NCBI GenBank assembly: GCA_030145105.1
Contig: JAQYWF010000006.1
Location: 1 to 36,423 of the forward strand
DNA: 36,423 nt
DNA from: Desulfosarcina sp.
Lineage (GTDB): Bacteria; Desulfobacterota; Desulfobacteria; Desulfobacterales; Desulfosarcinaceae
Direction: 5' to 3'
The notes beneath the pieces are model-generated. The model was not told the DNA's origin. It did not search any database and saw only the letters and a list, made by a program, of their open reading frames with translations. A program made the position numbers and the translations under genes. Below are positions 1,474 to 16,553 of the stretch, piece after piece (within the stretch, counting starts at the first letter, position 1; each line of letters opens with the position of its first letter).

Positions 1474-2052
1474 ATGATCAAAATCTATCGTTTCCCGATT
1501 ATAACATTGACGGTTATCTTGGCCGTGGCGATGTCAATTCCAGCAATGGCAGACAGTTATACGGATACCATTGCGATTTACAAAAAGTCCCCCGCGGTCC
1601 AGCCTTTTTTTAAGAACGCATACGGATATGCGGTTTTCCCGACTATCGGCAAGGGTGGGTTCGTCGTCGGTGGTTCCTATGGAAAAGGACAAGTCTACCA
1701 GGGCGGCAAGGTCACGGGCGAAGCATCTTTAATCAAGGGGTCCATCGGTTTTCAGGCCGGCGGTCAGGCATTCAGCCAGATGATCTTTTTTGAAGACAAA
1801 CGTGCCTATGATGAATTCACCAGCGGAAACTTTGAGTTTGACGGCACGGCCTCCGCGGTTGCCATCACGGCCGGCGTTCAAGGCAAGGCCGGTAGTGAAG
1901 GGGCCACGGCCAGTGCCAGTGCCGGGCCTGCCACCGCCGCACAGGCGGAAACAAACTATTACAAAGGCATGGTCGTTTTTACACAAGCCAAAGGTGGGTT
2001 GATGTACGAGGCGTCCATCGGTGGTCAGAAGTTCAGTTTCACGGCAAAATAA
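1474..2052 (+). CDS. Secreted SYLF-domain (Ysc84/DUF500) lipid-binding protein
   Basis: The 192-residue protein has a signal peptide of about 26 residues (ending PAMA-D). The rest is a SYLF domain: FFKNAYGYAVFPTIGKGG, GGSYGKGQVY, a QAFSQMIFFED segment and a closing GLMYEASIGGQKF. Eukaryotic SYLF proteins bind phosphoinositides; bacterial ones are exported and of uncertain role. A Gly/Ala/Ser-rich stretch near residues 130-155 may be a flexible loop. AAAGGAAC lies 7-9 bases before the ATG. It is the second gene of a two-gene unit with the Cys-rich protein and ends before the terminator at 2160. Confidence 0.85.
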   Translation: MIKIYRFPIITLTVILAVAMSIPAMADSYTDTIAIYKKSPAVQPFFKNAYGYAVFPTIGKGGFVVGGSYGKGQVYQGGKVTGEASLIKGSIGFQAGGQAFSQMIFFEDKRAYDEFTSGNFEFDGTASAVAITAGVQGKAGSEGATASASAGPATAAQAETNYYKGMVVFTQAKGGLMYEASIGGQKFSFTAK

Positions 2053-4390: not shown

Positions 4391-4738
4391 CTAGCGGCCC
4401 ATGTTACGGTTATATGCATCGAGCATGCGATTGATGAGATCAGGGTCTCTGGACGTAATGCCACTGGTATTGAACTTTACACGCACGCTACCGTCTGCCT
4501 GGGTACGCAGATTCGCCGTCACATCGATGCCGTTACGTGTGCCACCCATGATGCCCGCAGCACGATCCTCGCGGGTAATCGGCACGCCCTGATCGGCGAA
4601 GGCGGCTTGCGCAGCCTCCCATGAACGGTCGAAGCTGTTGACCGGCGTAGTTGAATAAACGCCGGGTGCGGCCTGGTGATAAGTGCAACCGCCAAGCAGC
4701 GTGGCGACCAATACGAGGGCTGCCAGATGCAGCTTCAT
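4391..4738 (-). CDS. Small uncharacterised lipoprotein, third gene of the DUF3300/DUF2950 cluster
   Basis: The 115-residue product begins MKLHLAALVLVATLLGGC with a lipobox cysteine at residue 18. ATG 4738 overlaps the stop of the DUF2950 gene as ATGA, and AAGGTG lies just before it, so translation is coupled; a longer frame from 4756 lacks such support. The mature part contains SFDRSWEAAQAAFADQGVPI, an R-x2-GIMGG segment and a C-terminal LINRMLDAYNRNMGR. It resembles small lipoproteins predicted to have an alpha/beta fold with unknown function. Cotranscription with DUF3300 and DUF2950 genes is the main clue to its role. Lipoprotein call is strong; function is unassigned. Confidence 0.75.
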   Translation of the reverse strand: MKLHLAALVLVATLLGGCTYHQAAPGVYSTTPVNSFDRSWEAAQAAFADQGVPITREDRAAGIMGGTRNGIDVTANLRTQADGSVRVKFNTSGITSRDPDLINRMLDAYNRNMGR

Positions 4739-5634
4739 GGATTCACCTTGTGCCAACTGCTATCAGGATTGAACAGGGTCATGGCGCTTGCGACAGCATC
4801 GCTTTCCGTTCCCAGATCTTTTTCGTAAATGACACCGTCATGGCTGACGATGAAGCTCATCACGCCGCTTTCGTCATATTCTGCTGGCCATGCCACCAAT
4901 GCGAATCCGGCGACCAGACGGCCATTAATGATGTAATTGTAGGCACCTCCTGGTGCGCTACTACCCTGTGCTGTGAGGATACGGTACTGATACCCCTCGT
5001 AGTCATAGCCTTGCTTGTCCTCACCATAAAGCGGGCCCAACGGGCTGGGTTCCTCACCTTCAAGCGCAGCCCAGTAGAGCCCGTTTTGCTTTCCGGGTGT
5101 GCTGATGATTTGTTGTGCATATTCGAGCGCACCGTCGCCGTTACGATCCACGCGCGCATATTCCTTTTGCGCATCGTAGTAGGCCAGCACGGCCTGCATT
5201 GTCGCCAGCTCGTTACGACCGATGCGGCGTGTCCGGATCTCGTCTGCAGCAGCTAGCGTGTCAAACCGCCAGGCACCCTGCTTTTCGATCAGCGGAATGG
5301 GCAGCACCCATTCCTGCGTGCCCACCGCCAGATGTGCTGTTTGCGCTGAGTTGGACACAATTTTGTGCGCCTCGGCCCAGGCTTTGAGGAAGGCGTCGAC
5401 ATCTTTGTCTTCAATGTTCTCTGTAGGGATGAAGTTTTTCCAGTCATTCCCCAGTACAACGCGTAGCGCAGCATGATCATTTTTCGCAATCGCATCAACC
5501 AGCGCTGTTGCCGCGGCATCTGCTGTGGGATAGGCCTGTTGCGCAGCCACTGGCATCGACGCGAACAGCACCATTCCTGCCAAAACTGACGCCAAGAAAC
5601 CATTCGACTTCATACGTGTTTTATTGCTCATCAT
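4735..5634 (-). CDS. DUF2950 family secreted protein
   Basis: The product of about 299 residues has a signal peptide ending near PVAAQQAYP. The body matches the DUF2950 family: ATALVDAIAKNDHAALRVVL near the N-terminus, NELATMQAVLAYYDAQKEYA in the middle, and GYQYRILTAQG, GRLVAGFALVAWPAEYDESGVMSFIV and GVIYEKDLG at the end. I chose the ATG at 5634 because GGTGGGGGG lies 7 bases before it; an in-frame start at 5661 also exists. DUF2950 genes commonly sit beside DUF3300 genes in proteobacteria, as here (36-base gap). No biochemical function is established to my knowledge. Codon and protein style resemble gamma/betaproteobacterial members, hinting at transfer. Confidence 0.85.
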   Translation of the reverse strand: MMSNKTRMKSNGFLASVLAGMVLFASMPVAAQQAYPTADAAATALVDAIAKNDHAALRVVLGNDWKNFIPTENIEDKDVDAFLKAWAEAHKIVSNSAQTAHLAVGTQEWVLPIPLIEKQGAWRFDTLAAADEIRTRRIGRNELATMQAVLAYYDAQKEYARVDRNGDGALEYAQQIISTPGKQNGLYWAALEGEEPSPLGPLYGEDKQGYDYEGYQYRILTAQGSSAPGGAYNYIINGRLVAGFALVAWPAEYDESGVMSFIVSHDGVIYEKDLGTESDAVASAMTLFNPDSSWHKVNP

Positions 5635-5669
5635 GTTTGTTCCCCCCACCTTTGTACCCATAGGTGCAC

Positions 5670-7025
5670 TTAGCGTCTACCTCCGCCACGACTCGAGCGC
5701 CCACCGCTGGAGCGGCCGCCCCCCCGGCTGTGGCTGCTGGCTGATTGACGGCTGGCGCTACCCCGACTGACCTGATGGCGACTCTGCGACGTATTGCTCG
5801 CACCCTTGAACGCATTTTCACTGCCCCTGTTCGATGACGAACGTGATTGATTCGCCCGGCTGCGATCCGCATTCTGCGCCTTGGCGCGCTCCTGGCTACG
5901 ATCCATGTTTTGTGATGGGTTGCGTGTTTGGTTGCGATCCGGGTTTTGCGTTGCCTGATTGGCACGATCGCGTGTTTGCGGATCGTTACGCAGCTTCTCG
6001 CGCCCAGCCGCCGGGTCAGCACCACGATTCTTCAGGGTTGTCTCCGCCTGCTGACGGCTGGCATCACGTTGTGTGTCACGACCCCGGGAGTCAGCCCGGT
6101 TCTCAGCACCTGCAACCTTGCGGTCGTATTGTTGGCGTGTCTTGTCATCGCGATACGGCACCCCTTTGCGGTTGGCCGCGTTGTGCTTCCAGTTGGTGTT
6201 GCTTTTATTCACGTTGTTGATTCGATTGTTGACGTTGATATTGTTGTAGCGGTTGACATTGATATTGACGCTGCCGTGGCCGTGCCTCCAGTTGCAGCCG
6301 CCCCACAGGCCGTTGTGAATACCAACGATCGCCGCACCCCACACAACGCCGGCAACAAACGCGCCACCCGGATAGTAATAACGTGGCGGCGCCCAGTAAT
6401 AAGGCGGATAGGCGGGATACCACCATGCGCCATAAACCACCGTTGGCTGATACACCGGCACATACACTGTCTGCGGCTGTGCGGGTTCGATGATGATCAC
6501 CGACTGGTCGCTATCAGTCTGCGTGCTGACTTTTTGTTGTTCATTGGTCTCAAGGTTGCCTGCTTCTTGTGCCTTATTGCGCAGAAACTGCACCCGATCC
6601 ATGACTTGGGAAGGCTGGGCGAGAAAGGCATCACCCAGTCGTTGAACATCAACTGGCTTGGCGCTCATCATGGCAAGTACCTGCGGAAAGGCCACCAGCG
6701 ACTTTACACTCGGATCCCAAGATTGGTCAGCTACCGCATTGACCGCTGTATCGCCCTGCTGATCGGGATTCGCTTCGGACCACTTGGCCGCTTCGACGAC
6801 ATCGGCCGGATAAGTAGCGGCCATCAGCACCTGGGCCAGCAGTGAGTCCGGATACAGTGCGATAGGTGCAAGCATCTGATCCAATTCCTCATTGCTGAAA
6901 GTTGCTGCTTCATCAGCGGCATGAGTAGCGGACGCAGCCAACACAAAAAGCAGGCTGGCCAAGAAAAAAAAGAACTGCCTCGTCGCTCGACTCAACGCCA
7001 GGCGTGAAAAACTCAGGAAGGTCAT
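5670..7025 (-). CDS. DUF3300 family secreted protein with long basic Arg/Asn/Ser-rich tail
   Basis: The 451-residue protein starts at ATG 7025, supported by CGGAG 8 bases upstream; the longer frame to 7196 runs through promoter DNA. A signal peptide covers about 38 residues (ends ATHAAD). The DUF3300 core follows: SNEELDQMLAPIALYPDSLL, then AQVLMAATYPADVVEAA, W-S-EANPD, a QTVYVPVYQP strand and a Tyr/Pro/Trp-rich PPYYWAPPRYYYP segment. After an Asn-rich stretch (VNINVNRYNNINVNNRINN) comes a low-complexity, strongly basic tail rich in Arg, Gln, Ser and finally Gly-Arg-Ser repeats. Such a tail could bind polyanions such as LPS, DNA or polyphosphate; that is inference. It leads the three-gene unit with DUF2950 and the small lipoprotein. 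Confidence 0.85.
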   Translation of the reverse strand: MTFLSFSRLALSRATRQFFFFLASLLFVLAASATHAADEAATFSNEELDQMLAPIALYPDSLLAQVLMAATYPADVVEAAKWSEANPDQQGDTAVNAVADQSWDPSVKSLVAFPQVLAMMSAKPVDVQRLGDAFLAQPSQVMDRVQFLRNKAQEAGNLETNEQQKVSTQTDSDQSVIIIEPAQPQTVYVPVYQPTVVYGAWWYPAYPPYYWAPPRYYYPGGAFVAGVVWGAAIVGIHNGLWGGCNWRHGHGSVNINVNRYNNINVNNRINNVNKSNTNWKHNAANRKGVPYRDDKTRQQYDRKVAGAENRADSRGRDTQRDASRQQAETTLKNRGADPAAGREKLRNDPQTRDRANQATQNPDRNQTRNPSQNMDRSQERAKAQNADRSRANQSRSSSNRGSENAFKGASNTSQSRHQVSRGSASRQSASSHSRGGGRSSGGRSSRGGGRR

Positions 7026-7197
7026 GATTCGTCTCCGTCGATTAAACGCCAACACAAGGGTGTTGACACACGATGTTACCCAGATAGTTAATTGTGTGCC
7101 CCACCGAATACACTCCAGATGGATTGCGCAGGCCGTTTCATTAGGGAAAAGATGATAAAACGCCAACAAAGATAAGAACTTGCTTTTTTTGCGCAAG

Positions 7198-7275: not shown

Positions 7276-9195
7276 TCACTGCAAACGGCCAATGCTGTCC
7301 AGGTGCTCCAGCAGAATTCGCCGGACCTCTTCAATCACCAGCGGGTGTTCCTGGCTGGAGTGGCCGCTGCGGACGATGAATTCCGATTCCACGTAATCGA
7401 CATGCGCACTGGTGTACTTGACGACCCCGTCTTTGCCGTCCGGCGGATTTTCATCACCGTCGATGGCAATGATGGAATGCCCCGTTATGCCGGGGGCGAG
7501 GGGGATTTCCGCCAAGGCAAGCAATCCGGGATTATCGGGGGACATGCCGTCAAGGCTGGTCGGCAGGCTGCCCGTTTCTTCAAATCCGGTGACACCCATT
7601 TTATTAGCTGTAAGAACAAGGGAAGTCGCCTGCTTGACCACATCCACGGGCAACGACACGATCTTTTTTACCATCCGTCGGATCCAGCCGCCGGCGAGAT
7701 AGCTGCCCCGGTGAGGCGTCGAGATAAAGACAACCCGGCTCACAAACGGCAGTGGTGAGTAAACCAGGTAACGCTCGACCATGGCCCGATCGGCCTCCGA
7801 TAGGTCGAGCTCGTCCAAGCCTTTGTGGGTTGCCGCTCGGACAATGGCGTCCCCGGTTTCCACCGCCGTTATCTTGGTCAGAAGCCCTCCCTGGCTGTGC
7901 CCGACGACAACCATCTCCTTCAGGGCGGTGTCTTGGCCTTCTGGATCAAGGGTTTCCACCATCCGGGACAACGATTCACGGAATTCACGCATGGAAAGAA
8001 CGATCTGCTTGCCGCTGTCGTAGAGGTAAAACCAGAACTGGTATTTATCCCACAGGACCGGGTCCGAGCGGAGCGTATTGAACATTTCGGCCCACCAAAC
8101 CGGGCTGCTGAAGGTCCCGTGGACGAAAACAACCGGGATCCGTCCAGGACTGTAGGGCTGCACCGGATAAATACCGCTCTTTACCACCGCCCCTTTGAGA
8201 AACTGCAGTTCCCCGATATCCCAGAAGAATGGCTGATTGAGGCCGTAAGCCAGCTGGGCGGCCAGGTCGTTTTCCAAAGGAACCTGTTGGTCATTGACCG
8301 CCACAGCCCTTTTTTCATAGGAGGAGTATAGTTCCACCCGACCCTGGACCCCTTCCCTGAGGTTCCGGATATCGCCCTCGACCCGCAAAAAAAGAGTCCC
8401 GGGTACCGATTTGACCACCGGCCAGTCGGGAGTTTTCTTTCCCACGGCGACAAAGGGTGCGCCGAGTCCCGGGCGCCGATCCCTGACGGTGAGTCCGTAA
8501 ACGGACAATCCATCGGCAGGAATGAATGTTTCGAAGCTTTCCAGATCATAGGGGAACCCGTCGTGACGAAGTTCGAGAAATATAGATCCCACCGGTAGTT
8601 CCTGCAAACCGACTTGAGCCTTGTTTCCCTCTTTTCGCAAGACCAGGGCCTGGGAAAGGGCGGTGTTGTACAAATCACAGGCCACCCGAAACCGGCGATC
8701 GTATGGTCCCGGGAGTTCTCCTCCCCGTTCCCCTAGCAGATAATAATAGGCATAAACCGCCGACGCCAGGTAAAATCGCTTGGCCCTCTGGAGGTGGGCC
8801 GGGCCAGTGCCGCTGCTGGCCTTGTTGGCGCTCATGCGGGCCTTGTCGGCGATCAGGTATGTTAGTTCGGATAGGGCGTAGAGTAGATCGCGGCGCTCGT
8901 CTTCACTGGCCTTGTCATGCAGGATCTCGATGGTCCCGTCGGGATCCTCACTGAACCGTTCCTCAAGAAAAAAACGATGCAGCACAAGTGCCGAGGCATG
9001 GCTGTAATCATCTTGCTTGATAGCGTTCAGATTGATTTGTTCATAGGTCTGCCTAACGCCCACTACACGGGTCCCGATGGGTGTGGCGCAACCGGATAGA
9101 AAAAGCACAAGCAACACGGACGACAAGAGCGCAAATCGCCACTTATTGCCGACGAAGGTCCGTTCAGATTTCCAGGCAATGCGATGAAGTTTCAC
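7276..9195 (-). CDS. Lipase-like alpha/beta hydrolase lipoprotein
   Basis: The 639-residue protein has a GTG start preceded by AAAAGG, a hydrophobic N-terminus and lipobox LFLSGC with Cys 36, so it is membrane anchored, probably periplasm-facing. Residues about 40-200 are helical with no family I recognise. The hydrolase half starts near residue 350: IPVVFVHGTFSS (oxyanion region, about 354-363), then the nucleophile elbow VVVGHSQGG with Ser 434, and VFISTPHRGSYLA typical of lipase/PGAP1-like folds. Candidate acid and His residues lie near the C-terminus (GDENPPDGKDGVV; SGHSSQEHP). It likely cleaves an ester of a lipid or another envelope acyl compound. It is the second gene after the DUF4105 membrane protein (26-base gap), suggesting a joint role in lipid or lipoprotein acyl chemistry. 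The substrate is unknown. Confidence 0.8.
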   Translation of the reverse strand: MKLHRIAWKSERTFVGNKWRFALLSSVLLVLFLSGCATPIGTRVVGVRQTYEQINLNAIKQDDYSHASALVLHRFFLEERFSEDPDGTIEILHDKASEDERRDLLYALSELTYLIADKARMSANKASSGTGPAHLQRAKRFYLASAVYAYYYLLGERGGELPGPYDRRFRVACDLYNTALSQALVLRKEGNKAQVGLQELPVGSIFLELRHDGFPYDLESFETFIPADGLSVYGLTVRDRRPGLGAPFVAVGKKTPDWPVVKSVPGTLFLRVEGDIRNLREGVQGRVELYSSYEKRAVAVNDQQVPLENDLAAQLAYGLNQPFFWDIGELQFLKGAVVKSGIYPVQPYSPGRIPVVFVHGTFSSPVWWAEMFNTLRSDPVLWDKYQFWFYLYDSGKQIVLSMREFRESLSRMVETLDPEGQDTALKEMVVVGHSQGGLLTKITAVETGDAIVRAATHKGLDELDLSEADRAMVERYLVYSPLPFVSRVVFISTPHRGSYLAGGWIRRMVKKIVSLPVDVVKQATSLVLTANKMGVTGFEETGSLPTSLDGMSPDNPGLLALAEIPLAPGITGHSIIAIDGDENPPDGKDGVVKYTSAHVDYVESEFIVRSGHSSQEHPLVIEEVRRILLEHLDSIGRLQ

Positions 9196-9221
9196 AGTCT
9201 AAGCCTTTTTTTGCATCAGGA

Positions 9222-10217
9222 TCATGGTGGCGAATCCATGCCAGGAAGCCCTTGCCGGATTATTTTGGAAAAAGCGGGGTCTTGGCCCGCCGCCTGGGCC
9301 TTTTTGTTGATGATGCTTCGCTGTTTGAGTATCTTGAAGGGTATGGATGTGTCTACGACCCCTTTCTCGTAGGCCAATTCGTCGAGATAGCCGTTGGCCA
9401 GTATCCGCCAGTCCCACCAGACCTCGCCGGCATACGGCCGGGTGTGGCCGCGAATTTCGGTCGTACAATTACCGGTCAAGGCGTTGTACCATTCGGGTTT
9501 TTCCTTCAAACGGTTGATGTAGCGGATGTAACCCATAAAAATCTGCCTGGCGACCTCAAGGGATGAGCCCTGCAGACGATACAGGTAAACGGTCTCCCCC
9601 TGACGGTAGTTGGTCCTCAGGCGGATCAGATCACGCTCGTCTGCCACCACGTAAAAGAGTTCGTACTGCCTGAAAAAACCCTTGATGGTGGAGTACGCTT
9701 CACCGACTTCCATGCGGGTCTCAATGGAGATGCACAGGTAGCTGCCATCATCGAAGCCAAAGCTGACCAGTGTATGCACAATCGTTTCAAGGCCCCAGTC
9801 GCTCAAGAAAAGATCGAAACTCCGAAGCCTGGACAGGTTGAAGGTCTTGTTATAATAGTCAATGGTATAGTCCGTTTCCGTCCGGTAATCGGAATTGCGG
9901 ATGTTGTGCACCGTGATCGCATCCCCATCGACAGTGGCGTAAGGCAAGACCGCCACATTCGGCTGCCAGTTGCGATCGTTGGACGGTTGCATGGACAGCC
10001 ACCCGATGAGGACCACGGCAAACAGGCCCAAAAAGGCCATTACCGCTTTTCGTCTTGGACGAAGCAACAGCAGCAGGGCGGCGGAGGCCACTACGAAAAG
10101 GCCGGCGCCTATATAGCGCAGCGGGGTTGGCAAATAGGAGAAAAAGATCGCCAGACTACCCCAGGTGATCATGGTGATCAACAGTATAAAAAGGGATAGG
10201 TATTTGATTGCCTTCAC
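9222..10217 (-). CDS. DUF4105 (Lnb N-terminal domain-like) membrane protein
   Basis: The 331-residue protein starts with GTG. Three hydrophobic segments lie at about residues 5-27, 33-52 and 58-76, followed by a periplasmic DUF4105 domain. That domain has NIRNSDYRTETDYTIDYYNK, a histidine at about 148 in IVHTLVSFGFDDGSYLCIS, and YNALTGNCTTEI with Cys 251. The His and Cys positions fit the papain-like/NlpC-type thiol centre of this family (PF13387), which includes the lipoprotein N-acylating enzyme Lnb of Bdellovibrio. Unlike Lnb-type proteins I recall, there is no extra C-terminal membrane region. It precedes a lipase-like lipoprotein on the same transcript. A transacylase or thiol hydrolase role is inferred, not shown. 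Confidence 0.75.
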   Translation of the reverse strand: MKAIKYLSLFILLITMITWGSLAIFFSYLPTPLRYIGAGLFVVASAALLLLLRPRRKAVMAFLGLFAVVLIGWLSMQPSNDRNWQPNVAVLPYATVDGDAITVHNIRNSDYRTETDYTIDYYNKTFNLSRLRSFDLFLSDWGLETIVHTLVSFGFDDGSYLCISIETRMEVGEAYSTIKGFFRQYELFYVVADERDLIRLRTNYRQGETVYLYRLQGSSLEVARQIFMGYIRYINRLKEKPEWYNALTGNCTTEIRGHTRPYAGEVWWDWRILANGYLDELAYEKGVVDTSIPFKILKQRSIINKKAQAAGQDPAFSKIIRQGLPGMDSPP

Positions 10218-10296: not shown

Positions 10297-11943
10297 TTAC
10301 CAGTCCGGCCGTCGCCAATCCCGGCGCTCCTTGTCGTCAACAGGCAATTCGACCGATTCCGGCTCAAGCAATCCGCCCCAACTGGTGCGCTGGATCATCG
10401 CATCTCTGTTTTCTACCGAAAGGATTTCTTCACCTTCCCTGATTTGCCAACCGCCTCCCAGCGCTTTGTAGGTAGCCACAAGGTTCGTGCCCACCTGGCC
10501 GCTGACTTCAGTCAAACGATCTGCCTGGGTGGCCAGAAAACGTTGAGAATCCAATACGCGTTGATAGTCAACGAGCCCCTCTTTGTATTGCAGCGAAGAT
10601 ATCGTTACCGATCGTTGGGCCGCATTGACGCTCTCTTTCAGAAACCGCTCCTCTTCCTTGGCCTGCGTAAAGGCGACCATCGCATCTTCGACTTCCCGTT
10701 GGGCGTTTAACACCGTATTTTTGTAACTGACCACCAGCTGTTGAAGGCGTGCATCTTCTACCCGCACACGGTTTCGGATGCGTTCGTAATTAAGAATATC
10801 CCAGTTGAAACCCGGTCCGGCGGTCCAGAACAAACTCTTATAGCTGAATAGATCACCCAGCGAATTCTGGCCGGATACCGAACTTGCGTCTGATGAATTC
10901 CATCCAATACTTCCAAATAGAAAAAATTGAGGATACAGGTTTGCTTTGGCGATTCCGATCTGAGGACTTTGGGTGGCGATTTGCAACTCGGTCAACCGGA
11001 TGTCGGGTCGACGCCTGAGAAGATTATTCGGAATGTCAACAATAACTGTCTCGGCGGCTACCGGAATATCAATCGGCCCACTTAGCAACTCTTTCAGTTC
11101 TCCCGGCAGCATACCGAGTAAGATGGCCAGTGCGTTCTGGGCTTGACGCAGTCCGGATGCCAGTTGGGGGACCAGGGCTTGGGTGTCGGTCAACAACATC
11201 CTGGCCTGGGTCACATCCAGCTCCGAGACGGCGCCCTCTTTGAATCGGACGTCGGCAATCCGCAGGGATTGCGCCTGCAACTTGACATTTTCCTCGGCGA
11301 TCGCCAACCGTTTCTCCAACGTGCGGATCAGGATGTACGTGCGCGCGACTTCGGCCGTCAAGGATACGAGAACGTTGTCATAGCTGGCGACGGTGGCCTC
11401 CAGGTTGGCGACGCCGGATTGTACCGAACGGCGATACTTGCCCCAAACGTCCAACTCCCACGCCGCATCGAACCCGAGGCTCAATGAATTGAAATGATTG
11501 TCGACAAAGGGGGTGTCGGTACCTATACTTGCTTTGTTGGTTGTCAGGTCTCCAGAAACCGATTGCTGCTGAGGGTACAAGCGGCCGACCGCAATCCCCA
11601 ATTGCGCACGCGCCTCATAAATACGGATGCCGGCGATCTGCAGGGAAAGGTTCTGCTGATAGGCTTTCTCGACCAGATTGTCGAGCACGGGGTCGTCAAA
11701 CACTTGCCACCAGTTACTGTAGTTGGTTTGACCGGCACGCAAGCCAGGTGCTTGTGTCTCCTTCCAGTCATTCAGCAGCGGTGCCTCCGGTTTCACAAAA
11801 TCCGGTCCGACCATGGTGCAACCACTCGCCATCAGGGCAATGGTTGTCCATACCAGCATCCAGGATCTCAATGTCGGACGTCGTTTTCTAAACCGGTTTA
11901 TCGGTCTTTGAATGATTGCCACATCGCCTATATCATTATTCAT
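10297..11943 (-). CDS. NodT-family outer-membrane efflux lipoprotein (TolC-like)
   Basis: The 548-residue channel starts at ATG 11943, preceded by CAGGAGAG; an upstream in-frame extension to 12147 runs through a structured leader. Lipobox MASGC gives Cys 42, then the NodT motif MVGPDFVKPEAPLLNDW. Two OEP repeats follow, with long helices (NLSLQIAGIRIYEARAQLGI, NAQREVEDAMVAFTQAKEEE), the RRRPDIRLTELQIA motif and the typical LNAQ/YKEGLVDYQRVLDSQR end. Such proteins form trimeric barrels with a periplasmic alpha tunnel and are the exit duct of RND pumps. It is downstream of the RND pump gene and adaptor gene, so the three form one efflux system, although a 335-base spacer suggests separate or tuned expression of the channel. 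Confidence 0.9.
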   Translation of the reverse strand: MNNDIGDVAIIQRPINRFRKRRPTLRSWMLVWTTIALMASGCTMVGPDFVKPEAPLLNDWKETQAPGLRAGQTNYSNWWQVFDDPVLDNLVEKAYQQNLSLQIAGIRIYEARAQLGIAVGRLYPQQQSVSGDLTTNKASIGTDTPFVDNHFNSLSLGFDAAWELDVWGKYRRSVQSGVANLEATVASYDNVLVSLTAEVARTYILIRTLEKRLAIAEENVKLQAQSLRIADVRFKEGAVSELDVTQARMLLTDTQALVPQLASGLRQAQNALAILLGMLPGELKELLSGPIDIPVAAETVIVDIPNNLLRRRPDIRLTELQIATQSPQIGIAKANLYPQFFLFGSIGWNSSDASSVSGQNSLGDLFSYKSLFWTAGPGFNWDILNYERIRNRVRVEDARLQQLVVSYKNTVLNAQREVEDAMVAFTQAKEEERFLKESVNAAQRSVTISSLQYKEGLVDYQRVLDSQRFLATQADRLTEVSGQVGTNLVATYKALGGGWQIREGEEILSVENRDAMIQRTSWGGLLEPESVELPVDDKERRDWRRPDW

Positions 11944-11982
11944 AGCGGGCTCTCCTGTATAACCACATATGTCGGAGCGGTC

Positions 11983-12181
11983 GGTGAAAATATTGGCCCC
12001 AATCTTTACCCCAACGATGCAAAAGCGGGAGGGTTTCAGAGCCAAGGCGCCGAGGGTGACGCCGTAGTCCTTTAGTGCAATCCCTTGGTAACGCGGGATC
12101 TGGAATCCTCCCGCTTTCCCGAGAGGGTAAAAACATGAGAAAATCATTGTTTTTGCAGGAATTCACATCAGGTGGATTCCT
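11983..12181 (-). promoter_or_regulatory. Structured leader in front of the outer-membrane channel gene
   Basis: Several inverted repeats lie in the 335-base spacer between the pump and channel genes. AGGAAT/ATTCCT occupies 12157-12162 and 12176-12181. A perfect 11-bp long-range pair AAAGCGGGAGG/CCTCCCGCTTT is at 12022-12032 and 12107-12117. An imperfect 14-bp-arm hairpin GGTGAAAATATTGG/CCAATCTTTACCCC spans 11983-12012, just before the ribosome-binding site. This looks like a folded 5' leader or an interspersed palindromic repeat. I recognise no riboswitch class. Confidence 0.4.
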
Positions 12182-12191
12182 GAACATCCGG

Positions 12192-12208
12192 TAAAATGAA
12201 ACATTTTA
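12192..12208. promoter_or_regulatory. Palindrome, candidate operator between pump and channel genes
   Basis: TAAAATG-AAA-CATTTTA is a perfect 7-bp inverted repeat with a 3-base centre, about 70 bases beyond the end of the RND pump gene and at the upstream end of the structured leader. It could be a regulator site or, with AT-rich arms, a weak terminator. Confidence 0.35.
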
Positions 12209-12278
12209 TCTATATTTACATAATGTTAAAATAATTTTCACATGTTTTTATGCAACGATGGGGTTTATTGTCACAAGT

Positions 12279-15200
12279 TCAAGCAGGCACGTTATCAGCC
12301 GTGAGTTTAACCCGAAAAAAGATGCTGTAGAGCGCCGGAACATAATTTAGCGTAAATAAACTGCCGATGCCCAACCCGAAAAACATCACGCACGCCATTC
12401 CGAAAAAAAGCGGATCATGGTTGAGAATCAGCGGCGAAAAGCCCAGCATCGTCGTCGAAACCGAAAGCAGGATCGGCCTGAATCGGCTGACGGCCGAGTT
12501 TACGACCGCATCGTAGGGGTTCTGTCCGTTACGAATATTTTCCTCGATTTTATCGATCAACACGATGCCGTTGTTGACGATGGAGCCAGCCAGAGCCAAC
12601 AGGCCGAGGATCACCATGAAACCGAAATCGGCCTGCATCACCAGAAGGCCAACCACGGCACCGACCATGACCAGCGGCATGGTCAGGATGATGATCGCGG
12701 CCCGGCGGATAGAGTTGAACTGCCATACCAGCAGAAACACGATACCGCCAAAACAGGGCAGCATCCATTTCATCAGATTCCTTTGGGCTTTGGCAGAATC
12801 CTCTAATTCCGCCCCGACCGCCCAGTAGTGGTTGACCGGAAAGTTCATATTGTCCAGGGTCGGCTTCATGGCGGCAAAGAGTTCGGATGCCAGCAACGCC
12901 TGGTTTTTCGCGCTGACCGTTATGGTGCGCTCCTGATTGTAGCGCATGATGCGGTTTAGTTCGCCTTCGACATGCACATCGGCAACCTGGCTGAGCGGCA
13001 CGCTGTCGCCGGATTCGGTGCGGATGCCCAGCGTACGCAGGCTGTCGGGAGAATCCCGTTCGGTTTCAAAGCCGCGCCCGACGATGGGGATTTCGACATT
13101 GCCTTGATAGAAATTAGTGGCTGTCAACCCATCGACAAAGAACTCCAGGGTGTCGGCCACATCCTTGGATGTCACTCCCGCACGGCGGGCGCGGGCTTGA
13201 TCGACATCCGCTTTGACCGAATACACCCGGTTGTTCCAATTCTGTTTGATATCGATGGTCCCAGGTATCTTACGAAGCGCATCCATTAATTGCCGGCCCT
13301 GCTCCTCCAGCAAATCTATCGCGGGTCCACTGAGCCGGATTTCAAGCAGACCGGTTTCACTGGCCCCGAGCCACATGGATTTGACTCTTCCGCGCATGTT
13401 GGGGAAATGGCTTTCGATGTAATGCCGCGTGCGCTGGACGAGTATGGGAACATCTTCACTCGCCTTGGTATTGACAATTACAAACCCGACAAACGGGTCC
13501 GGGTCCATCGGTGACAGTGAAAGGAAAAAGCGCGGTCCGCCGTTGCCGACATAGGCGATGGTTCCCGTAATTTCGGGATTTTCCTGTTCGTCCTCCAACC
13601 AGGCGCTGAGTTCTCTTACCGACCTGTCGGTCTCCTCGATGCGTGTCCCGGCGGGAAGATCCAGATAGATCAGGTACTGGTTGCGGTCCCCACTGGGAAA
13701 AAAGGCCTGCGATATGAATGTCGCCGCATAAAGTGAGACCGCAAAAATACCTCCTGTAACGGCAATCACCAGGAACCGGTATCGCAGAGAGAACTTCAGA
13801 ATCTGGCGATAGATGCGATAGAATCTGCCCTGATAGGGATCGTCCGGCTTCTGCGGGTCGGTGCCTTTGGAGGGTTTTACTTTTAAAAACCAGAAACACA
13901 TACTAGTAGAGGAAAACATGGAGAAAAACCACGACCCCATCAGCAGGATGATCATCACCGAACCCAGCGAGGAGGTGTAGTCACCAGTCGAACCGATTTG
14001 GAGCAAAATCGGGCCGAAGGCGAAGACGGTCGTAAGCGTGCTGGTGAGCAAGGGCAGCGTGAGGGCGTTACCGGTTTTTAACACGGCGTCCTTGCGCGGC
14101 ATTCCTGATTCCAGATTCACCTTGATATCGTCGGACACCACGATGGCGTTGTCCACGAACATGCCCAATGCGATGATCATCGTGGCCAGCGACATCCGCT
14201 CCATGTCGATTCCCAGGGTATACATGGTCAAAATACCGAAAAGCATGACCAGTGGGATAAAGGAGCCGACAATCAACCCGGTTCTGAACCCCAGCAGCAG
14301 CATGACCACCACCAGGACGATCGCCACGCTTTCGATGACATTGATCACCATGCCCTGGACGGCGGTTTTGATGAGCTCGGGCTGGTAGGTGGCAAAATCG
14401 AGTTTGTAACCCCAGGGAAGGGATTGCTCGATCTCCTGGACTCTTTTCTTCAGTCGTTCGCCGAACTCGACGGCGTCAACCCCGCTGAGGATGTAGATCC
14501 CCAGAACAATGGCCTGATGACCGTTGTAGTATGCCGGGTTGTGAATCGGCTCCACATAGGCTTTTCTAACGGTAGCGATGTCGCGCAGGGGGATCGTTGC
14601 CTGGGTGCCGGAAATCGGGATAAGGACGTCTTCGATTTCCGCGATGGACGTGAATCGGCCCTGGGTTTCCACTGCGATTTCCACACCGCTGACATTGATC
14701 CGGCCACCCGGCAAAAGAATATTCTGCTCCCGAAGACTCTGCCCGATAATGGCCATATCGATTCCCAGCTGCGCAATCTTGGCGCTGGATGCTTCGACGT
14801 AGATGCGTTCATCCTGTACGCCGGTGAGATCGACCTTCATGATCCCCTTCATGAGATTGAGCCGTTCTCTGATCTGACGGGCGGTTTCGTGCATTTCCGC
14901 CATGGAAAACCCGTCACTCCACAGCGCAATTGTGGCCACGGTGGTGTCCCCGACCGTATCGTTGACCACCGGTCCTATCGTGCCTTCCGGCAGCTCGGGT
15001 TTGACATCGGCCATCCGGTTGCGCAGCAGTTTCCATGTCGCCGGGAGCTGCTCGGAAGGCACTTCATCCTTGATGGTGACGTGGATCAGGCATTCGCCGA
15101 CTTTGGACGTGGAATCATAAATCTCATCGACCTCGCCCATGCTCCGAAGTTCCTCTTCGATGGGCCGGGTAATCAAGCGCTCGATATTTTCCACAGGCAT

Positions 15201-15362
15201 CCCGGGATATTTTGCCGAAATCACCGCCTCGCGAATCGTTATGAATGGATCCTCCAATTTCGGGAGGTCGATAAACGCGTAAATACCGCCGACAATCACC
15301 AGTAACATGGTCATGATGACGGTTCGTGAATTATTCAGGGCAAATCCGGTGATCCCATTCAT
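12279..15362 (-). CDS. RND efflux pump, AcrB/HAE1-type inner-membrane permease
   Basis: The 1027-residue length and architecture are full size for the family: one N-terminal membrane helix (SRTVIMTMLLVIVGGIYAFI), porter domains (YPGMPVENIERLITRPIEEE), six helices, a second periplasmic half and six more helices. The helix-4 proton-relay region reads LGMFVDNAIVVSDD, with one of the two AcrB aspartates kept and the second position Asn, as in many HAE1 subgroups. A second-half signature is GSIVNNGIVLIDKIEENIR. It uses the proton gradient to export hydrophobic compounds, with substrate not predictable. AAAGGAAC precedes the ATG. The adaptor gene ends 26 bases upstream and the NodT channel gene follows. 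Confidence 0.92.
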   Translation of the reverse strand: MNGITGFALNNSRTVIMTMLLVIVGGIYAFIDLPKLEDPFITIREAVISAKYPGMPVENIERLITRPIEEELRSMGEVDEIYDSTSKVGECLIHVTIKDEVPSEQLPATWKLLRNRMADVKPELPEGTIGPVVNDTVGDTTVATIALWSDGFSMAEMHETARQIRERLNLMKGIMKVDLTGVQDERIYVEASSAKIAQLGIDMAIIGQSLREQNILLPGGRINVSGVEIAVETQGRFTSIAEIEDVLIPISGTQATIPLRDIATVRKAYVEPIHNPAYYNGHQAIVLGIYILSGVDAVEFGERLKKRVQEIEQSLPWGYKLDFATYQPELIKTAVQGMVINVIESVAIVLVVVMLLLGFRTGLIVGSFIPLVMLFGILTMYTLGIDMERMSLATMIIALGMFVDNAIVVSDDIKVNLESGMPRKDAVLKTGNALTLPLLTSTLTTVFAFGPILLQIGSTGDYTSSLGSVMIILLMGSWFFSMFSSTSMCFWFLKVKPSKGTDPQKPDDPYQGRFYRIYRQILKFSLRYRFLVIAVTGGIFAVSLYAATFISQAFFPSGDRNQYLIYLDLPAGTRIEETDRSVRELSAWLEDEQENPEITGTIAYVGNGGPRFFLSLSPMDPDPFVGFVIVNTKASEDVPILVQRTRHYIESHFPNMRGRVKSMWLGASETGLLEIRLSGPAIDLLEEQGRQLMDALRKIPGTIDIKQNWNNRVYSVKADVDQARARRAGVTSKDVADTLEFFVDGLTATNFYQGNVEIPIVGRGFETERDSPDSLRTLGIRTESGDSVPLSQVADVHVEGELNRIMRYNQERTITVSAKNQALLASELFAAMKPTLDNMNFPVNHYWAVGAELEDSAKAQRNLMKWMLPCFGGIVFLLVWQFNSIRRAAIIILTMPLVMVGAVVGLLVMQADFGFMVILGLLALAGSIVNNGIVLIDKIEENIRNGQNPYDAVVNSAVSRFRPILLSVSTTMLGFSPLILNHDPLFFGMACVMFFGLGIGSLFTLNYVPALYSIFFRVKLTADNVPA

Positions 15363-15388
15363 TTTCAGTTCCTTTTGTCCCAGGCGCT

Positions 15389-16489
15389 TTACGGTTGCAG
15401 CAATTTCACTTCCATCCCATCGGCCAAGAAACTTACCCCGGCCACGGCAATAATGTCCCCGGTGGTCAGCCCCTCTGAAATAATTGCTTTTTTTCTATCC
15501 ATCCCGGCGGCGTGCACCGGCGTCTTTTTAACCGTCGATGTCTGGTTATCATATACAAAGACAAATCCCTGGTTCGATTCCTGAGCAGGCAGGATAGCCT
15601 GGAGGGGAACTAGGTAACCAATTGCCAGTTGTGTATCCGTAGTGATGAGATTCGCCTCTGCCGTCATACCGGGCAATATTTTTTCATTGGGATCGTTCAG
15701 TTCCACCTTGACCGGAAAGGCGTTGGACTGAATGGCAGCGCTGCCGATGTATGATATGCGGCCGTTTGCCGACTCACCCGGTAGTGTGGGAAAGGTGATC
15801 GTCGCCTTGGCATCGATGGTGATCCGGTCGATGGCGGTTTCTGGAACGGCCAACTGGATTTCCCTTTTTCCCGTGGCGTTGATGTTAAGTATTTCCTTTC
15901 CCGCCGCCACTTCTTCGTGCGGCTGGACCGACCGCGAAGCAATCGTGCCGTCATAGGGGGAAAACAGCCTGGTTTTACGCAGATCGCGGTTGGCCAAATC
16001 CAGTTTGGCCATCTGATAATTGACCGCACTCGCGGCGGACTTGAAATTAAATTCGGAGACATCCAGATAACTCTTGGCGCCGGCGCCCTGTTCGTAAATC
16101 CGCTTATGGCGCTCATATTGCGCCTTGGTCTTGGTTACATTGTCCCTGGCCTTGGCCAGCTCGGCCTTGGCCGCATCCACATTCAGCTGGTAGGACTCCG
16201 GGTCGAGTTCGGCGAGCACCTGTCCCTTTTCGACTCGGTCTCCAATATCGACGTTCACAGCAGCCACCTGCCCACCGACCTCAAAGCTGAGCCCGGAGGA
16301 GTCGACCGCGGCGACGAGCCCGGAGAATTTGAGTATCTGCCCGGCAGGTTGATCACTGACGGTAATCGTCTTGATGGCTCGGACCGCCTCAATAATTTCA
16401 GTTTTTTCTTTGCATGCCGTCAGGGCAACCAATAGGCAAAGAAGCCAGACCATCCGCCTTAACGTCTGTTTTGGCATAGTAAACCACAT
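15389..16489 (-). CDS. RND efflux periplasmic adaptor (membrane fusion) lipoprotein
   Basis: The product is 366 residues from ATG 16489, chosen because GAGG lies 9 bases upstream (an in-frame TTG at 16504 and an ATG at 16477 are alternatives). Lipobox VALTAC gives Cys 26. Then come the barrel-sandwich half motif (SFEVGGQVAAVNVDIGDRVE followed by KGQVLAELDP), an alpha hairpin rich in Ala/Lys, the second lipoyl half (TRLFSPYDGTIASRSVQPHE) and the beta-barrel/membrane-proximal domains (PVKVELNDPNEKILPGMTAE). It links the pump to the outer-membrane channel. It is the first gene of the efflux unit; no TetR/MarR-type regulator gene is adjacent. Confidence 0.9.
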   Translation of the reverse strand: MWFTMPKQTLRRMVWLLCLLVALTACKEKTEIIEAVRAIKTITVSDQPAGQILKFSGLVAAVDSSGLSFEVGGQVAAVNVDIGDRVEKGQVLAELDPESYQLNVDAAKAELAKARDNVTKTKAQYERHKRIYEQGAGAKSYLDVSEFNFKSAASAVNYQMAKLDLANRDLRKTRLFSPYDGTIASRSVQPHEEVAAGKEILNINATGKREIQLAVPETAIDRITIDAKATITFPTLPGESANGRISYIGSAAIQSNAFPVKVELNDPNEKILPGMTAEANLITTDTQLAIGYLVPLQAILPAQESNQGFVFVYDNQTSTVKKTPVHAAGMDRKKAIISEGLTTGDIIAVAGVSFLADGMEVKLLQP

Positions 16490-16553
16490 TTTTTTTAGCC
16501 TCAATTGTTGGTATTGGGTTTAGGGTTGCATCGTCTAACAATAAAAGTCTATG

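Follow-up and report, generated by a model that had tools for sequence, protein, structure and literature searches.

The characterized member of the DUF4105 family (Pfam PF13387, now Lnb_N) is Lnb, which the available excerpts of three papers present as the lipoprotein N-acyltransferase of Bacteroides (PMC12994826, PMC12345273, PMC13251419). The excerpted text of the first of these places DUF4105 as a clade of the permuted NlpC/P60 group and gives Tox-Act1, a type VI secretion system effector with phospholipase activity on phosphatidylglycerol and phosphatidylethanolamine, as its sister clade (PMC12994826). We analyzed a stretch of 36,423 nucleotides from Desulfosarcina sp. (GCA_030145105.1, contig JAQYWF010000006.1, positions 1 to 36,423; hereafter the window), in which a DUF4105 gene stands beside a gene for an alpha/beta-hydrolase lipoprotein. 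This pairing is conserved across several phyla, in both gene orders and far above chance. Both enzyme types are already known; the variant seen here is a branch of Lnb_N proteins with N-terminal helices that occurs beside Lnt, the canonical lipoprotein N-acyltransferase, and is tied to a lipoprotein of lipase fold. No earlier description of the pair was found in the open-licence literature searched.

Conservation of the gene pair

The DUF4105 gene lies upstream of the hydrolase gene on the same strand, and 26 bp separate the two open reading frames (Table 1). From the common strand and the short gap we infer that the genes are cotranscribed; scans for promoters and terminators gave numbers close to chance (14 against 11.7 expected and 20 against 17.3 expected, respectively).

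Table 1. Features of the gene pair and its surroundings, with positions in the window
Feature	Position	Strand	Basis
DUF4105 / Lnb_N protein, 331 aa, GTG start	9222..10217	-	Open reading frame; PF13387; AlphaFold2 model
Three predicted membrane helices at the N-terminus of the DUF4105 protein, residues 2-74	9996..10214	-	Hydropathy and model
His148 codon, putative catalytic His, predicted strand 146-155	9774..9776	-	Conserved in alignments
Cys251 codon, NC-TT motif, putative nucleophile, opens predicted helix 251-263	9465..9467	-	Conserved in alignments
Alpha/beta-hydrolase lipoprotein, 639 aa, GTG start	7276..9195	-	Open reading frame; AlphaFold2 model; best structural match a lipase
Lipobox Cys36 codon, LSGC-ATP, Ala at +2	9088..9090	-	Row conservation
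N-terminal region of the hydrolase, residues 47-307	8275..9057	-	Model: helices 47-183, then strands 196-307
Alpha/beta-hydrolase domain, residues 341-638	7282..8175	-	Model; structural matches mostly within 334-636
Ser434 codon, GHSQGG nucleophile elbow	7894..7896	-	48/48 rows; between strand 428-433 and helix 435-441
Asp589 codon, putative catalytic acid	7429..7431	-	48/48 rows; after strand 571-577
His612 codon, putative catalytic His	7360..7362	-	48/48 rows; after strand 604-608
RND efflux set (adaptor, pump, outer membrane channel)	10297-16504	-	
DUF3300 gene, then DUF2950 gene	4735-7196	-	
Ysc84/SYLF gene	1474-2052	+	Weak match

Among 291 genomes of the class, a full-length hydrolase was present in 19, a DUF4105 protein in 22 and both in 16, against 1.4 expected if the two were independent (Fisher P=8e-19, nominal only, because the genomes are related). 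Three genomes held the hydrolase only and six the DUF4105 protein only. Short partial hydrolase matches in two genomes (G150 and G162) were excluded from the carrier count, and one genome whose DUF4105 gene is seemingly split into two frames (G237) was kept as paired. The genes are adjacent in 14 of the 16 co-occurring genomes, forming 15 pairs, and three of these genomes have the reversed gene order. In the remaining two, the genes lie 3 kb apart in one and on different contigs in the other. The window hydrolase is the sole match to its family in its genome.

A hydrolase-profile scan of genome contigs gave 275 confirmed loci, and the best 80 were surveyed. Their source labels include Desulfobacterota, Verrucomicrobia, Lentisphaerae, Methylococcales, a planctomycete and a Nitrospirales bacterium, among others. 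A same-strand DUF4105 gene was found at 38 of the 80, within 400 bp of the hydrolase gene at 34 (30 upstream and four downstream) and at 0.8 to 1.2 kb at the other four. The initial annotation had put forward a genome-neighborhood survey as a check on the pair, and there the pairing held, both at these 34 loci and in 16 of the 19 class genomes with the hydrolase, though 42 of the 80 loci showed no partner. The two surveys overlap in part (L088, G329 and G066 are one genome) and hence are not independent. No fusion of the two proteins was seen among the DUF4105 matches at hydrolase loci, where no dedicated fusion search was made.

In 28 of the 34 pairs lying within 400 bp (L102, L104, L113, L116, L135 and L138 were left out), the pairwise distances of one protein correlate with those of the other (r=0.69, permutation p=0.0001). 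Such a correlation is expected from joint inheritance and alone is no proof of joint function. The two genes could also be unrelated in function, carried within accessory envelope-gene islands and brought together by history, as the changing set of neighbors between loci and the missing partner at 42 of the 80 loci might suggest. We consider this very improbable, as DUF4105 is by far the commonest neighbor of the hydrolase, the spacing is tight and both gene orders occur.

The DUF4105 protein

PF13387 matches residues 121-273 of the DUF4105 protein above its cut-off (E=7.7e-33). Hydropathy analysis gave three hydrophobic stretches (residues 7-25, 33-51 and 58-76) that correspond to helices 2-25, 31-51 and 55-74 of the AlphaFold2 model, which has a mean predicted local distance difference test (pLDDT) score of 91.7. 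His148 and Cys251 are present in all 35 rows of alignment A3, which used 34 of the 38 DUF4105-bearing loci (L104, L116, L135 and L138 were excluded as near copy, truncated or split). Both residues are likewise present in all 21 rows of A2, the class set without the proteins of G076 and G246 and the truncated L068, which stops short of the Cys. These results bear out the earlier description of a membrane-anchored DUF4105 protein with an NC-TT cysteine and a candidate histidine.

In the permuted NlpC/P60 layout the catalytic His comes before the Cys, with the Cys at the start of a helix and the His on a strand. The AlphaFold2 model of the DUF4105 protein has this topology, with His148 in a strand and Cys251 first in a helix, and this predicted arrangement fits a shared His148-Cys251 site. 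Structural matches of the model are weak: the best (Z 4.6, 103 residues, root-mean-square deviation 3.3, covering residues 124-277) is Aichivirus 2A, tied with unrelated chains. Aichivirus 2A belongs with LRAT among the H-box/NC proteins, and kinship with it would be in keeping with the layout; a Z of 4.6 does not establish such a relation. Foldseek returned no match to the model at E 0.001, and sequence and profile searches against solved structures gave nothing significant for the protein.

The His-before-Cys order is common to the DUF4105 protein and to Tox-Act1 and other permuted NlpC/P60 lipid enzymes (LRAT-like, YiiX-like), as far as the excerpts of PMC12994826 describe them. Unlike the effector Tox-Act1 of that paper, the window protein is anchored in the membrane and has a lipase-fold lipoprotein as its partner. 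A second Lnb_N protein, of 363 aa and 39% identical, is encoded elsewhere in the same genome (G000:C448:11796-12884, L075).

Comparison with Lnb

The window DUF4105 protein and Lnb (PF13387 plus PF25221; NF051878) have in common the Lnb_N domain, the NC-T Cys and membrane anchoring. They differ in that the window protein has three N-terminal helices and not a C-terminal 5TMH_Lnb domain, matches no equivalog model, lives with Lnt and is paired with a lipase-fold lipoprotein. Lnb_N was the only domain matched in the window protein, with no C-terminal PF25221, and the NCBIfam Lnb model NF051878 matched neither this protein (at E 0.01) nor anything in its genome. Across the 16 genomes with both genes, NF051878 matched the paired gene in none; it matched elsewhere in three (G048, G051 and G165), at 20-22 bits and in frames of 642-655 aa. 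For comparison, 61 genomes from the phylum that includes one Sphingobacteriaceae genome (G291) yielded 16 Lnb_N proteins. In this set C-terminal hydrophobic stretches were present in 16/16, PF25221 was found at the C-terminus of both proteins scanned for it, and NF051878 matched in 16/16 genomes with scores of 195-322 bits, short of the 550 bits set as its cut-off.

A canonical Lnt is encoded in the genome of the window (G000:C15, 365 bits, open reading frame of 625 aa), in which the Glu, Lys and Cys motifs expected of Lnt are present. Of the 22 DUF4105-bearing class genomes, 21 have an Lnt match at E 1e-98 or better, and the exception is a genome that is 80% complete. It also scored above cut-off in 23 of the 24 Lnb_N-bearing genomes reached through the hydrolase loci, which include at least one class genome again (G329), versus 6 of the 16 genomes with Lnb-type proteins in the comparison phylum. 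Absence of Lnt is therefore not an absolute mark of Lnb, as those six genomes carry both. Lnt, where present, already provides for the N-acylation of lipoproteins.

Profile comparisons with hhalign were run on the domain alone, since a run on whole alignments had aligned hydrophobic helices, an artefact. The Cys of the DUF4105 family aligns directly with the NC-T Cys of Lnb (probability 41.7%). In global mode, the comparison of this family with Lnb was uninformative. The His aligns with the Lnb His only through a third, long class, the DUF7843-Lnb_N-DUF7840 proteins of about 630-660 aa (probability 17.9% between the DUF4105 family and this class, and 94.6% between this class and Lnb). In these long proteins the Lnb_N domain, His and Cys align with the window family, but the flanking domains are different and there is one N-terminal hydrophobic stretch instead of three helices. 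This architecture was seen in the scanned proteins L167, L168 and L170, and L169 was assigned by length only; their genomes have Lnt above cut-off, and some of the 24 Lnb_N-bearing genomes carry this long type. Overall, the DUF4105 family is related to Lnb and likely has the same chemistry, to judge from these alignments, in a different architecture.

The initial annotation had hinted at an Lnb-type enzyme; this was not supported, given the missing Lnb transmembrane domain, the lack of an NCBIfam Lnb match and the canonical Lnt alongside. Naming the protein Lnb by domain alone was ruled out by its architecture, the NCBIfam model and the co-occurrence with Lnt. A narrower possibility is an auxiliary Lnb-like N-acyltransferase that would work alongside Lnt on some lipoproteins only, the partner lipase perhaps among them. 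The domain and Cys in common with Lnb and the His linked through the third class speak for it, as do the lipoprotein itself, also present in 16 of the 22 DUF4105-bearing class genomes and mostly adjoining, and the six comparison genomes in which Lnt and Lnb coexist. The absence of both 5TMH_Lnb and the NCBIfam Lnb match, and the presence of Lnt in 21 of the 22 genomes, count against it, and we regard it as rather improbable.

The hydrolase lipoprotein

Alpha/beta-hydrolase Pfam models match the 639-aa protein weakly, below their cut-offs, and sequence and profile searches against solved structures gave no match below E 0.02. A structural comparison of its AlphaFold2 model (mean pLDDT 89.7) ranked lipases and phospholipases first, with Z 19.6 over 221 residues for BlEst2, 19.0 for a Streptomyces lipase, 18.7 for PlaB and 18.1 for a Pseudomonas aeruginosa lipase. 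Other alpha/beta hydrolases rank below these, at Z 17 to 18. The lipobox occupies residues 33-36, after a predicted helix (4-34). In alignment A4, which took in 47 of the 80 hydrolase loci, Cys36 is present in 48/48 rows and Ala37 in 35/48. The GHSQGG motif (432-437) is found in all 48 rows of A4, and Met replaces Gln435 in one of the 20 rows of alignment A1. Asp589 and His612 were picked as triad members by order and model position; His598 (48/48) and Asp549 (45/48) are also conserved. We conclude that the protein is an alpha/beta-hydrolase lipoprotein of lipase fold with a conserved, putatively catalytic Ser-Asp-His triad.

The hydrolase domain resembles BlEst2, the P. aeruginosa lipase and PlaB in aligning over 209-221 residues (Z 18-20), in its GHSQGG elbow and in the Ser-Asp-His order. 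Unlike them, the window protein is a lipoprotein with an N-terminal region of about 260 residues, made of helices and strands. In the window protein, Pfam assigns nothing to this N-terminal third, in agreement with the initial annotation, which had left it unassigned and had recognized a 639-residue lipoprotein with a GHSQGG center; the reading frame, motif and lipobox Cys all agree with that description. Tyr176-Asn177 of this region are present in 48/48 rows of A4. In one genome (G059) the pair adjoins a second, shorter hydrolase (430 aa, L056:11371-12660), which is lipoprotein-like and groups with the family by clustering.

Some of the 48 relatives match palmitoyl-protein thioesterase (7/48) or a PGAP1-like domain (34/48) weakly. 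These matches raise the idea that the lipoprotein edits acylation, stripping ester-linked chains from lipoproteins or from products made by the DUF4105 enzyme, so that the two would act as writer and eraser. However, the matches are weak and reflect the fold in general, and the hydrolase stands without its partner at 42 of the 80 loci, which makes such editing very unlikely in our estimate.

Neighboring genes

DUF3313 genes were found at 12 of the 80 hydrolase loci (about 0.15 expected) and Ysc84/SYLF genes at 10 (about 0.17 expected). The expected counts were taken from gene density in 45 genomes and are rough, as loci and genomes are partly related and each cluster was named by one scanned member. 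Other neighbors include FadL-type genes and sulfatases (six loci each), MscS-type genes (three) and MlaA (two). SYLF is a lipid-binding domain, and the window has a SYLF gene, one of three in the genome, on the other strand and about 5 kb away from the hydrolase gene. At three loci where the hydrolase lacks a DUF4105 partner (L129, L142 and L144), it lies near a conserved gene (cluster 22) that resembles larC.

AsmA proteins are phospholipid carriers (for AsmA relatives, PMC8593681), and an AsmA-family gene lies just downstream of the window pair on the same strand. Also downstream of the hydrolase gene are DUF3300 and DUF2950 genes, in an order described as universal in root nodule bacteria in the excerpted text of PMC4653623.

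An RND efflux set lies directly upstream of the window pair, and the excerpts of PMC10318531 carry the suggestion that DUF4105 may support resistance transporters. RND genes are not regular neighbors of the pair: channel-, pump- and adaptor-like genes were found at 3, 3 and 2 of 29 class loci, window included, and RND-like pumps, adaptors and channels were recognized by eye at five, four and three of the 80 loci. As RND genes are rare near the pair, that suggestion, as far as the excerpts give it, is at most weakly borne out here, and the pump was dropped as a partner because few loci hold it. A role as a defense system was dropped as well, as neither the DUF4105 protein nor the hydrolase was matched by PADLOC.

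Interpretation

We tentatively interpret the pair as a module for remodeling envelope acyl lipids, namely the acyl chains of phospholipids, with putative substrate and reaction. The DUF4105 protein would be a permuted NlpC/P60 thiol enzyme that faces the periplasm. An acyl chain would be transferred from a phospholipid to its Cys251, and from there to a non-lipoprotein acceptor or to water. By the Escherichia coli rule, Ala at +2 directs a lipoprotein to the outer membrane, and the hydrolase lipoprotein is probably sent there. It may hydrolyze either the remaining acyl chain or the product that has been acylated. Drawing on one lipid pool, the two enzymes could renew or reshape phospholipids between the inner and outer membranes.

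We favor this remodeling module because the pairing occurs in both gene orders, with strong co-occurrence and correlated distances, and because residues are invariant in both proteins and the best structural matches of the hydrolase are lipases and phospholipases (Z 18-20). The enrichment of SYLF and DUF3313, the FadL-type and MlaA neighbors and the downstream AsmA-family gene point the same way, and Lnt already fills lipoprotein N-acylation. The relatives also act on acyl chains, Tox-Act1 as a phospholipase and Lnb as an acyltransferase, according to the excerpts of PMC12994826. An acyl-transfer or lipid-remodeling module had been proposed in the initial annotation. The module remains reasonable in light of the conserved pair, the conserved His and Cys and the lipase fold; the Lnb-type N-acyltransferase is the part of that proposal that was not supported.

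Several observations weigh against a joint module. The 42 of 80 hydrolase loci without a DUF4105 gene in the available stretch, some of them ended by the contig, include all ten Methylococcales-type loci (Methylococcus, Methylomonas, Methylotetracoccus, Crenothrix and the like). In 45 genomes chosen mostly for having no pair at the locus, which covered 41 of the 42 partnerless loci (L131 was left out), an Lnb_N protein was found somewhere in 24 and was absent altogether from 21. With the six DUF4105-only and three hydrolase-only genomes of the class, each enzyme is also found alone, and therefore each can work alone. DUF3313 and SYLF are present with and without DUF4105 (6 of the 12 DUF3313 loci and 7 of the 10 SYLF loci are paired), and they therefore track the hydrolase and say little on the pair. 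The RND pump beside the window pair is rare at the loci of relatives, and the structural matches of the DUF4105 domain are only weak, with the best at Z 4.6 and tied with unrelated chains. We hold the remodeling module tentatively because its activity is putative and each enzyme also occurs alone.

Alternatively, both enzymes may be plain hydrolases that clear mislocalized or foreign phospholipids and other acyl esters with no acyl transfer; the outer membrane phospholipase PldA clears such envelope lipids. The lipase and phospholipase folds that match the hydrolase are consistent with this, as are the MlaA and FadL-type neighbors at a few loci and the phospholipase activity of the sister clade Tox-Act1 (PMC12994826, excerpts). 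Lnb, the characterized DUF4105 protein, is a transferase in the same excerpts (PMC12994826), which argues against it; otherwise the evidence does not separate hydrolysis from transfer. We consider clearance by plain hydrolysis somewhat unlikely.

A more specific form of the remodeling module would be a relay across the envelope, placed by source labels in Desulfobacterota, Verrucomicrobiota and Lentisphaerae, in which an inner-membrane thiol acyltransferase, derived from Lnb_N and acting on a non-lipoprotein substrate, starts a reaction that an outer-membrane lipoprotein lipase completes, so that the two make or turn over an undescribed acyl lipid. We regard this version as unlikely.

The name of the Lnb_N domain reflects one function, lipoprotein N-acylation in Bacteroides. 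A separate branch of Lnb_N that has kept the catalytic residues and changed the membrane part warns against calling DUF4105 proteins Lnb by domain alone. The defined gene pair offers a handle on what else Lnb_N thiol chemistry does to envelope lipids.

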